A stretch of DNA of 64,000 nt, taken from positions 1 through 64,000 of the forward strand of contig CAMPAL010000001.1 in NCBI GenBank assembly GCA_946631855.1, in the 5' to 3' direction. Both the position numbers and the translations under genes were made by a program. Positions 58,124-61,828 of the stretch are shown piece after piece. Each line of letters starts with the position of its first letter. The stretch's first letter is position 1. The notes below the pieces were generated by a model that saw nothing but the letters and a program-made list of their open reading frames with translations, made no database searches and was not told the origin of the DNA. The DNA is from an uncultured Treponema sp. Its GTDB lineage: Bacteria > Spirochaetota > Spirochaetia > Treponematales > Treponemataceae.

Positions 58124-60238
58124 ATGGCCTTTAGCTTGAATAAAAAAGCTTCCTCATCAATGTCAACTCCCCTTTGGAGAATTGATCATATTATCGGAAA
58201 TGAATTTATAACAGTTTTACTTGATAAGCCAATCAGAAGTACTTCAAAAGATGATATGCAAATGCTGAAGTATGTACAAGCTATGCTGGAAAAGAAAGGT
58301 ATAAATTCTTATGTAATTACGTCTGCATTGAGAGATTACCCAACTGAAATAAAAGGAGGTTTGACAGAATTTTATACAAAGCATGATTCAAAATGGTTTG
58401 ATGAAATTATAAAACCTGCAAGAGCAAAAGGGATGACTGCAGATGTAGTAATTGCATATGGAGCGGCTTTTTATCAAATCACAAAAGCAACAGATGTTAT
58501 TATTGATGACTTGATTTACCCTTATTTTGAAAATTACATTTATATAGGACACGGCTGGATTGGGGATTATGATTGTTTTATTTATCCAATGTTTACTTTG
58601 GAAGAAATTTTCAAACCTGGCCGTGTAGTAGGAGATAATAGTATTTATCTCAACAACTGGAAGATGAATTTTATGGTTTCGATTTTTGGAAAAATCGCAA
58701 AGCATACATACAAACTCCCTGATGAAATGGAAGATGTAAAACTTGTAGAAATTGGGGCAGATTATGAAGAAAATAAAGAAGCTGCAGTAAAAGAGGTAAA
58801 AGAATTTTTGCAATCCCATTTTAATGAAGAGATGTGCGCATTCGACCTTGAAACTTCCGGTTTTGCTCAGTGGAAAGATAAAATCAGATGTATTACTTTG
58901 GCATTTGATAGTATTACAGGTTATTACATTGAATGGAAGATTTTTGAACAAAATCCTGAATTGATAAAACTTTTATCAGAAATGATGAAAAGTGCAAAGC
59001 ATAGGATTACTGTAAACGGCAAGTTCGATATTAAATTCCTTTGGGTAAACGGGCTTGATTTGGATGTAAATGTTACAGATGATGCAATGACTTTGTCTCA
59101 TGTTTTGTGTTCAGGAAGGCATAAAGGTTTGAAAACAATGACTTATTATTGGACTCCTTTTGGGGGATATGATAATGCATTGGATACATATAGAGACAAC
59201 TTAAAAGCAAAAGGAAATAAAGATCCGAGTTATTATGACATTCCAAAAAAGATTTTGTTTCCATATGCAACTATGGATGCCGTAATGACAATTCGCACTT
59301 TCAAAGCTGCAGAAAAAAGGTGTCATGATTTTGATTACAGATTCCCTTCAGAAATTCCAATTGAGCATACTGGAGGAAAATTAAATACAGCCTGGGAATG
59401 GTATAAATATATAATGATGTTGTACCCAATTATTTGTAAAATGGAATACAACGGACTTTGTATTGACATGGAAGTTGTAAAAAGACACCGAGAGATTTTT
59501 AGAAAAGAAATTGAGGAACAAAGAGAAAAGCTCGCGGAGATTTTTAAGGAAATTAAAGTTGAAGGCAAATATGTTGATAAAGACTATGATTTTGGGTCAT
59601 CTGTACAATTAGGCAAATTGCTTGAAGCTGCAGGTTGGAGTTGTCACGGAAGGTCAAAGCACGGAGAATATGCAACTTCGGATGAATGCTTTACAGAATG
59701 GAAACGTGAAAATATGAAAGGCGTAAAGGAATTGATTAAATTCCGTGCAGCCAATAATGCATTGGGTACTTACCTTGGCCAGCTTGAAACAAAAGTTGAT
59801 CAAAAGAAAGGAACCGTAAAAAAGGAATGGAGTGGCTGGCCTCAATATATTATTCACGATGAAGTTGACGGTACAGATAAAATTCATTGTAACTTTACAG
59901 TTTGTGGAGCAGAAACGTTCCGAATGATTTCAAGAGAGCCGAATTTGCAAAATGTTCCAACTCGTTCTTTGGAAGGTCAAATTGTAAAAATGTGCTTTAC
60001 AGTTCCTCCTGCTCCAATGTATTTTATTACAGACGAAAATGGAAAAGAATGGGAAGTTACTCAATTAGGAGTAATAAATACTACAAGAGGATACGTAGCC
60101 GCAGGTGCAATGACTGAAGAAGATACCGTAGTAGATATTGGAGAAAAAACGGTACTTGAATGGGATGAATGGACAAAAGAGGGAATAAAGCCAATTGGAA
60201 TTGAAACAATGAGAAGAAATCCAGCGGTTTTTAAGTGA
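58124..60238 (+). CDS. Family-A DNA polymerase, N-terminal fragment (3'-5' exonuclease plus start of polymerase domain)
   Basis: Exo motifs AFDLETSGF, TVNGKFDIKFL, YATMDAVMT; polymerase CGAETFRMISREPNLQNVPTR; ends before motif A. Confidence 0.85.
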   Translation: MAFSLNKKASSSMSTPLWRIDHIIGNEFITVLLDKPIRSTSKDDMQMLKYVQAMLEKKGINSYVITSALRDYPTEIKGGLTEFYTKHDSKWFDEIIKPARAKGMTADVVIAYGAAFYQITKATDVIIDDLIYPYFENYIYIGHGWIGDYDCFIYPMFTLEEIFKPGRVVGDNSIYLNNWKMNFMVSIFGKIAKHTYKLPDEMEDVKLVEIGADYEENKEAAVKEVKEFLQSHFNEEMCAFDLETSGFAQWKDKIRCITLAFDSITGYYIEWKIFEQNPELIKLLSEMMKSAKHRITVNGKFDIKFLWVNGLDLDVNVTDDAMTLSHVLCSGRHKGLKTMTYYWTPFGGYDNALDTYRDNLKAKGNKDPSYYDIPKKILFPYATMDAVMTIRTFKAAEKRCHDFDYRFPSEIPIEHTGGKLNTAWEWYKYIMMLYPIICKMEYNGLCIDMEVVKRHREIFRKEIEEQREKLAEIFKEIKVEGKYVDKDYDFGSSVQLGKLLEAAGWSCHGRSKHGEYATSDECFTEWKRENMKGVKELIKFRAANNALGTYLGQLETKVDQKKGTVKKEWSGWPQYIIHDEVDGTDKIHCNFTVCGAETFRMISREPNLQNVPTRSLEGQIVKMCFTVPPAPMYFITDENGKEWEVTQLGVINTTRGYVAAGAMTEEDTVVDIGEKTVLEWDEWTKEGIKPIGIETMRRNPAVFK

Positions 60239-60347
60239 AGTAAAAAAAGGAACTTTTAAAAGTTCCCTTTTGAATTCTTTAAAAAGATTTGAAAACAAAA
60301 AATAAAAACTAACAAAGCTGCATCCACTGTAACTATATTTTTTCTGT

Positions 60348-61355
60348 ATGGAAGTGAAAACAGTGGACGAGCTTTTAACTTTACGTAAATCATTAAAAGC
60401 AAGCCAAAACAAAAAGACGACTTTTACATTTGAATGCCAAAGATGCCATAAAAAAGTTGAACGCAGGGTATTTGCAAAGTCAACAGATTTGCTCTGTAAA
60501 GGTTGTTTAGCGAAAAAAACCAATTTAGAAAAGTTTGGAGTTGAAAACCCTTCTCAAGCAAAAGAAATAAAAGAAAAGAAAAAACAGACTTCTCTGAAAC
60601 ATTTTGGAACAGAAAACCCAATGCAAAGTAAAGAGGTAGTTGAGACTTTGAAGAAGAGTAATTTGGAAAAGTTCGGAGTTGACAACGCTGCAAAGTTGGA
60701 TTCTGTAAAAGAAAAGATGAAGGCAACGAATAAAGAAAAGTATGGAGAAGAGTTTTTTGCAAAAACGGATGGATATAAAAATGCATGCAAAAAAGCTTGG
60801 GAAAAGAAATCAAAAGAAGAACTAAAAGAAATTGAAGAAAAAAGAAAAGCAACTTGTAAAGAGATTTACGGAGATGAAAATTTCAATAATAGAGATAAGT
60901 TTAAGAAAACTTGTTGTTCTAGATTTGGGTATTCCAATCCAATGAAAAAAGAGGAATTCAGAGAATATTTTTCAAAAATGAGAGGTTTTCCTCATTCTTA
61001 TCTTTATGAGTTTAATGGTGAAAATTTTGATTCAAGTTGGGAATTAGCATTATGGATTTACGCAAAAGATCATAATGAGGAAATTGAACGAGAACCTTGT
61101 TGCTTTGAATATGAATTTGAAGGGAAAGTACATAGATATTTTCCAGATTTTAGGTATAAAGGAGAATTGATTGAGATAAAAGGTGATTATTTGTTTCAAA
61201 AAATGATGATTGAAAATACAAAAAATCACGCAAAGTTTCTTTTGATGAAAAGTTTAGGTGTAAATATTTTACGGGAAAAAGAAATTTCGTCATATATGAA
61301 TTATGTGAAAAATACTTATAGAAAAGATTATTTGAAATCATTCAGGCAAAGATAA
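60348..61355 (+). CDS. Homing-type nuclease with zinc finger, LEKFGVENP repeats and PD-(D/E)XK (VSR/EDxHD-like) C-terminus
   Basis: CQRCHK...CKGCLAKK; four or more LxKfGvxNp repeats; FDSSWELALWIYAKDH...RYFPDFRYKGELIEIKGDYL. Confidence 0.8.
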   Translation: MEVKTVDELLTLRKSLKASQNKKTTFTFECQRCHKKVERRVFAKSTDLLCKGCLAKKTNLEKFGVENPSQAKEIKEKKKQTSLKHFGTENPMQSKEVVETLKKSNLEKFGVDNAAKLDSVKEKMKATNKEKYGEEFFAKTDGYKNACKKAWEKKSKEELKEIEEKRKATCKEIYGDENFNNRDKFKKTCCSRFGYSNPMKKEEFREYFSKMRGFPHSYLYEFNGENFDSSWELALWIYAKDHNEEIEREPCCFEYEFEGKVHRYFPDFRYKGELIEIKGDYLFQKMMIENTKNHAKFLLMKSLGVNILREKEISSYMNYVKNTYRKDYLKSFRQR

Positions 61356-61393
61356 AATGAGATATTAAAAAGATACAAGAAAGGAGAAAATAA

Positions 61394-61828
61394 ATGGGTT
61401 GTAAAATCAGAGTAGATCTCTATAATAAAAAAGCGGGTAGATTGTGCTATCTTCTCACAACTGCAGATGCGGCATCACTCGAAGCGAGAGTTGCGACCTC
61501 AGACACCGCTTTAAACCCAAAAGGCATTGACCCTGTATTAAAATCAGTATATGATCCAAATTCAGGAATGGGCGAAGATTTACACTCAATGACAGGGTGG
61601 AATACATTTTGTAAAGCAGTAAATTTACAGACTTTGGAAATTACAGATGAAAAAGGAAAAGTTTGGCTTTGCCAGCCCGAAAGCCAGAAACTTTGGATTT
61701 ATAGGGATGAAAAGCCAATTTTAATTTTGGGGCAAGATTTGAAAGAGACAGATAAAATCCTCGGTTATATGGAGGATTTTATTGAATCAGATTTTACACC
61801 TGAAAAACTCAAAGAACTTATTGCTTAA
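61394..61828 (+). CDS. Family-A DNA polymerase fragment carrying motif A
   Basis: LLTTADAASLEARVATSDTALNP...GMGEDLHSMTG matches motif A (DxSxxExR ... DxHxxT). Confidence 0.7.
   Translation: MGCKIRVDLYNKKAGRLCYLLTTADAASLEARVATSDTALNPKGIDPVLKSVYDPNSGMGEDLHSMTGWNTFCKAVNLQTLEITDEKGKVWLCQPESQKLWIYRDEKPILILGQDLKETDKILGYMEDFIESDFTPEKLKELIA

Follow-up and report, generated by a model that had tools for sequence, protein, structure and literature searches.

A huge-phage family A DNA polymerase encoded in three pieces, probably clasped by splicing-dead remnants of split inteins

The stretch analyzed here (the window) comprises the first 64,000 bases of a 66,168-base contig (CAMPAL010000001.1, called C1) in an assembly of an uncultured Treponema sp. 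(GCA_946631855.1), and it holds two parts of a family A DNA polymerase gene separated by a gene for a homing endonuclease (Table 1). Judging from its open reading frames (ORFs), the polymerase is encoded as three separately translated proteins, termed N, M, and C, which together span the entire enzyme and each of which has a start codon and a purine-rich leader resembling a ribosome-binding site. Piece N matches the Pfam exonuclease model DNA_pol_A_exo1 and, over residues 461-631, positions 2-151 of the 381-position DNA_pol_A profile; it is also recognized as a PHROG DNA polymerase (E = 1.7e-49) and is 31% identical over 634 columns to the piece encoded by a relative, G099. Piece M by itself matched no Pfam polymerase model; it shares 50% identity over 78 columns with the motif-A region of G099 and has a free-standing homologue in a second relative, G109. 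Piece C, a product of 320 amino acids (aa) recovered by a family search of the genome bin containing C1, is encoded on another contig (C2:15868-16830), where it adjoins a second nuclease gene on the opposite strand.

The catalytic residues of motifs A, B, and C, together with a 3'-5' exonuclease, identify the enzyme as a family A polymerase. The first break corresponds to the turn between ..FTVPPAPMYF and CYLLTTADAASLEAR, a few residues ahead of the motif-A strand, and motif A is therefore whole within the 144-aa piece, in which Asp25 and Arg32 are invariant among eight aligned sequences. Piece C keeps motif B (R..AK..NF..FG) and motif C (HDS); the R, K, and F of the former and the HD of the latter are invariant, and HDS is present in intact phage polymerases too. 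A previous sequence-only reading of the window had placed its three ORFs correctly and had described piece N as an exonuclease and polymerase segment with a nonpolymerase tail, which the Pfam matches bear out. It had also placed motifs B and C outside the window and predicted at least three pieces, and exactly three were found, with the homing-type nuclease gene between the first two. Its suggestion that the split lies inside motif A was mistaken.

The bin (2.65 Mb, 217 contigs, 77% complete) has a polA gene closest to those of gut Treponema (88% to Treponema sp. UBA4267). A dispersed repeat family of about 180 bp is common to C1, C2, C4, C7, C13, C16, C19, C24, and C32, and because these nine contigs (366.6 kb in total) share it, they are taken as one huge phage on sequence grounds, binned with a possible host, although binning is no proof of host. 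The G+C content of C1 and C2 is 0.32 to 0.33, versus 0.38 at the host polA.

Relatives of the polymerase were retrieved by alignment queries; single-protein and motif-chimera queries of viral contigs returned none, and a search of genome contigs found no relatives of the pieces. Intact polymerases of 905 to 936 aa occur in L158/L188, L183, L184, and L185, and the comparison with uninterrupted homologues that the sequence-only reading had proposed shows them to be without the tails described below. In about seven relatives (L071, L072, L177, L178, L179, L180/L181, and L182), the polymerase is cut only at a motif A/B site, and the cut ahead of motif A is common to the phage studied here, L186, and G109. 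The pieces are spaced very differently: they adjoin in L182, with a small ORF between them, lie 4 kb apart in G102, with a GIY-YIG-like gene between them, and lie about 38 kb apart in G103 and G104, and the N and C pieces of G099 are 206 kb apart on opposite strands. In L071, L177, and L178, the second piece is absent from the contig examined. G109, a single contig of 385,934 bases, encodes all three pieces at distant loci (Table 1), cut at the same two sites at a sequence identity of about 30%.

An assembly artifact is ruled out by the single contigs of G109 and G099. Because identical break points are found again in other phages, far beyond chance, the splitting, as read from these alignments, is not local damage. 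In a phylogenetic tree, the three-piece phages group as a single clade (support 95/94), but the two-piece phages do not. A single origin of the motif A/B split was considered and is not favored by the tree, in which L182 groups with the intact L183 and L180 with an intact clade; repeated invasion of this site is as likely as one origin. Between the closely paired three-piece phages L186 and G109, the ratio of nonsynonymous to synonymous substitution rates (dN/dS) comes to 0.071 in the polymerase and 0.26 in the tail, indicating that both are kept by purifying selection.

Every upstream piece ends in a tail that is missing from the intact relatives, and these tails are of intein origin, a derivation that went unrecognized when the end of piece N was described as nonpolymerase sequence. 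Searches of the tails against Pfam and NCBIfam returned nothing useful, and their homology emerged from profile and structure comparisons. When 12 tails were compared by hhalign with three genuine split N-inteins from the ribonucleotide reductases (RNRs) of the same phages, the match (Prob 95.8, E = 6.5e-9) covered the last 45 of 111 positions, and tails from site 1 alone and from site 2 alone each yielded E = 2.5e-7. The score of 45.4 compares with best values of 15.3 among 200 column shuffles and 15.1 among 52 polymerase windows. Against all Protein Data Bank (PDB) sequences, the tail profile ranked the NrdJ-1 intein first (E = 2.3e-4; next match, 0.45). AlphaFold2 modeled tail 1 with block means of 79 to 89 across the first 50 modeled residues and tail 2 with a predicted local distance difference test score of about 80 to 94; by Foldseek, the top 17 matches to tail 1 were all inteins (probability up to 0.93), as were the more probable matches to tail 2. 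In both sequence and fold, the tails are thus homologous to the N-part of a Hint domain of the NrdJ-1 type, in its distal part only. The alternative that the tails are a native polymerase insertion was rejected, as only about 25 residues occupy that place in the intact close relatives. The tail of TerL, compared with the same family, scored 14.5, inside the shuffle range.

The residues required for splicing are missing on both sides of the breaks. Alignment with intact relatives detected no block A with its Cys/Ser1 in the tails, and TxxH of block B is absent from all 12; by comparison, a Cys1 block and TPDH are both found in the genuine N-inteins of these phages, TPDH in 3 of 3. About 8 residues lie between the native polymerase and the first tail strand, and therefore there is no space for block A. 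Downstream, the pieces begin with short heads (MLKITKRA, LLKITPRTVRRQIK, MPCKITRRTEHR, MKITHRKVMR, MSYTITKRP, MRVKKINITEKK, MGCKIRVDLYNKKAGR, and MALKIKKQEK), none of which (0 of 8) contains the C-intein end of Asn followed by Cys, Ser, or Thr. With splice residues gone from both sides, neither break holds a splicing-competent split intein of the Dassa type, and protein splicing appears very unlikely. The tails and heads have opposite mean net charges (-5.2 and +3.5), and seven of the eight heads carry at least +3, versus 10.5% of other ORF starts, although the relatives are not independent.

TABLE 1 Features of the polymerase locus in the window and positions of the polymerase pieces in G109
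Feature	Position	Strand	Description
Leader hairpin	58088..58101	+	GATACAAAGGTATC, 14 bases; before piece N, also before piece C
Polymerase piece N	58124..60238	+	ORF, 704 aa; N-terminal domain, 3'-5' exonuclease, polymerase segment ending just ahead of motif A, tail 1
3'-5' exonuclease domain	58790..59308	+	Pfam PF01612, residues 223-395
Tail 1	60026..60235	+	Piece N residues 635-704, net charge about -6; intein-derived C-terminal extension, absent from intact relatives
Possible intrinsic terminator	60249..60266	+	After piece N, weak; consensus scan, 1 found versus 1.8 expected in shuffles
Homing-endonuclease gene	60348..61355	+	Between N and M; DUF7487 repeats, C-terminal PDF...EIKG nuclease-like motif
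Polymerase piece M	61394..61828	+	ORF, 144 aa; motif A preceded by a basic head and followed by tail 2
Head 1 of piece M	61394..61441	+	MGCKIRVDLYNKKAGR, net +4 by charge count; absent from intact relatives
Motif A	61463..61489	+	ADAASLEAR, within piece M; catalytic Asp retained
Tail 2	about 61625..61825	+	Piece M about residues 78-144, net -6; intein-derived extension
G109 piece N	195829-197739
G109 piece M	within 43000-43491
G109 piece C	218232-219245

These features suggest that the polymerase is probably a noncovalent three-subunit enzyme clasped by splicing-dead remnants of split inteins. At each break, the acidic tail of the upstream piece, with its homology to the terminal part of split N-inteins, would meet a short basic strand lying where a C-intein would start; the remnants may still pair as in split inteins and hold the pieces together as one noncovalent enzyme, which would then be active as a polymerase. 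An anionic N-part and a cationic C-part bring the halves of split inteins together (PMC11766414), splicing-blocked NrdJ-1 halves still bind one another with a dissociation constant of 68 nM (PMC13123727), and the region left in the tails and heads is the region at the intein split site. In the probable history, split inteins with homing endonucleases invaded the gene, the splicing ends were lost while the association core was retained, and the genes later dispersed. It is somewhat better than an even bet that a selfish splicing element has in this way become a permanent clasp, its chemistry lost and its association module kept, yielding a three-subunit polymerase from scattered loci with two distinguishable clasps.

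Several observations weigh against this interpretation. The linkage of C1 to C2 rests on shared repeats and on comparison with relatives, not on reads. Since the tails are half domains, no single Foldseek match reaches significance (best E-value, 0.47). At 8 to 16 aa, the heads are too short to be tested for homology by themselves, and their assignment to inteins rests on position, charge, and pattern. NrdJ-1 binding was measured on whole halves and not on such remnants, the tails are less constrained than the polymerase according to the dN/dS values above, and they could bind something else.

Noncovalent assembly could instead proceed through the polymerase's own surfaces, with the tails serving another role or none. 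Genes-in-pieces enzymes of other phages function without inteins, NrdA of Aeromonas phage Aeh1 being a known case, and the weaker constraint on the tails fits this explanation; it is nevertheless unlikely given that all of the split relatives examined have the tails, at both sites, and that these are acidic on average and face basic heads. Covalent joining, with an unusual split intein mediating protein trans-splicing, would agree with the homology of the tails to N-inteins, with the genuine RNR split inteins of the lineage (as in L180), and with the inteins in TerL and NrdD of this phage. We consider it a slim prospect, since every tail is without the block A Cys/Ser1 and TxxH, block A cannot fit into the roughly 8 residues ahead of the first tail strand, and no head has the terminal Asn with Cys, Ser, or Thr.

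The pieces might also be a decaying gene whose work is done by another polymerase. Phages can use host polymerases, and the bin contains an intact Treponema-type polA; this gene, on C39, is the only intact family A gene in the bin and lies outside the phage contigs. The sequence-only reading had named a complete second polymerase as the finding that would speak against a divided enzyme, and no family B or DnaE match was found in the bin, though bin and phage are incomplete. Retention of the motif A, B, and C catalytic residues, the dN/dS of 0.071 in the three-piece pair, and maintenance of the break sites at about 30% identity make decay highly improbable. The least probable explanation is that the RNAs of the pieces are joined, by a group I or group II intron or by trans-splicing; evidence of RNA splicing was the other finding that the sequence-only reading had named as speaking against it. 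Many large phages have introns in polymerase and other genes, and the Jug huge phages are described as rich in group I introns (PMC12363816), but Rfam gave no match up to E = 1 in window positions 57000-64000 and none in the C2 and C16 stretches. Moreover, the pieces occupy three loci in G109 and opposite strands in G099, each has its own leader and start codon, and the tail is translated under selection.

The nuclease gene between N and M matches Pfam DUF7487 (PF24308, E = 8.7e-27) and PHROG homing endonuclease families (best E = 2.2e-16). The sequence-only reading had called it a VSR-like homing-type nuclease, of which the homing type stands; for the VSR-like part, no solved structure in the PDB matched convincingly. 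Its view of the polymerase as fractured around a nuclease gene likewise applies to N and M here, an arrangement as in Dassa-type fractured genes, but not as a one-off nuclease accident, since the cuts recur and no nuclease gene lies beside any of the three polymerase pieces in G109. Another DUF7487 nuclease copy in the window (20494-21360) is interrupted by TGA and TAG, and homing-nuclease ORFs at C2:13890-15797, C4:50282-52222, and C16:7730-9502 run into a DNA methyltransferase-like domain (DPFSGFSG...).

The leader hairpin upstream of N has only two exact copies in the 366.6 kb of phage contigs, both just 5' of polymerase pieces. The sharing was noticed after the fact, and an upstream-partner comparison served as a control: of 333 genes, C ranks first as a partner of N, with 34 of 55278 pairs scoring as high, and in G099, C is the tied best partner of N, with 169 of 51040 pairs as high. 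The shared leader is moderate evidence that suggests joint control of N and C. A leader shared in G109, AGTTAATAT, was rejected as a specific signal, being a general promoter-like motif with 49 copies there.

Inteins and fragmented genes occur elsewhere in these phages. Genuine split N-inteins with TPDH cut the RNR genes of L071 (9506-10627), L178 (8912-10198), and L180 (9340-10446); that of L180 has Cys1 ... TPDH ..., and its C-part ends in KN before a C. On contig C16 (L062:4124-7695), nrdD, encoding the anaerobic RNR, is likewise split in two, with a DUF7487 nuclease gene between the pieces, and its first piece contains an in-frame mini-intein ending in HN before a C. The TerL gene is fragmented at C2:53201-55700 (L009:13201-15700): its first ORF ends at Walker A and is followed by an HNH-type gene, and in the ORF after that, an intein ending in VTHN before an S precedes about 27 aa of terminase sequence and the beginning of another intein, with the rest of TerL not found.

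The repeat family is partly palindromic and clustered, with window clusters at 16683-17959, 40012-40141, and 57389-58033, and one cluster lies directly upstream of piece N. The window also encodes an adenylosuccinate synthetase at 51-1142 (a match to PHROG family 1211 at E = 3e-28, the annotation being that of the 2-amino, PurZ-like kind), with a homologue in G109 (36%), and one tRNA gene at 3692-3766 (ARAGORN), whose two-base anticodon is unresolved. GroEL-like chaperonins are phage encoded in these huge phages (C4:29617-31266, in L055, and G109:38053-39702).

If the proposed clasp is real, an enzyme broken by mobile elements survives unspliced, and the invader leaves behind the part that unites the halves. 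How genes in pieces turn into stable multisubunit enzymes would become testable, and natural nonsplicing clasps would be on offer for protein engineering. For annotation, the pieces carrying motif A or motifs B and C of huge-phage polymerases are easily overlooked.

No description of a polymerase clasped by splicing-dead inteins was found in the searchable literature, subscription journals and the key 2009 paper (Dassa et al.) being outside its reach. Among known systems, the DNA polymerase of OM43 phages (PMC10580990) is likewise split, into two genes with a small inserted ORF, but that ORF is of unknown kind, no intein is reported, and the mechanism is left open. In the Jug huge phages (360 to 402 kb, from the gut), DNA polymerase, terL, and nrdD are reported as split, often by endonuclease genes, and introns and putative inteins are described, with splicing-dead tails or dispersed pieces not mentioned in the available part of that report (PMC12363816). 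Jumbo phage MIJ3 similarly has a split DNA polymerase, with a split intein and with an HNH endonuclease gene lying between its two ORFs (PMC6892783); that enzyme differs in belonging to family B, in having reported intein blocks A to G, and in consisting of two adjacent pieces. The NrdJ-1 split intein (PDB 8ubs) is the best PDB sequence match of the tails, at its N-intein end, but here only the last ~45 residues of the N-part remain, a short strand replaces the C-part, and there are no splicing residues. The fractured genes with split inteins and homing endonucleases of Dassa et al. (2009), as related in PMC6892783, likewise comprise a phage replication gene in separate ORFs, with intein-derived sequences on either side of a gap that holds a homing-endonuclease gene. 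Those inteins are reported there to splice, whereas the polymerase described here is without block A, TxxH, and a C-intein end and has two breaks, with one piece at a distant locus.
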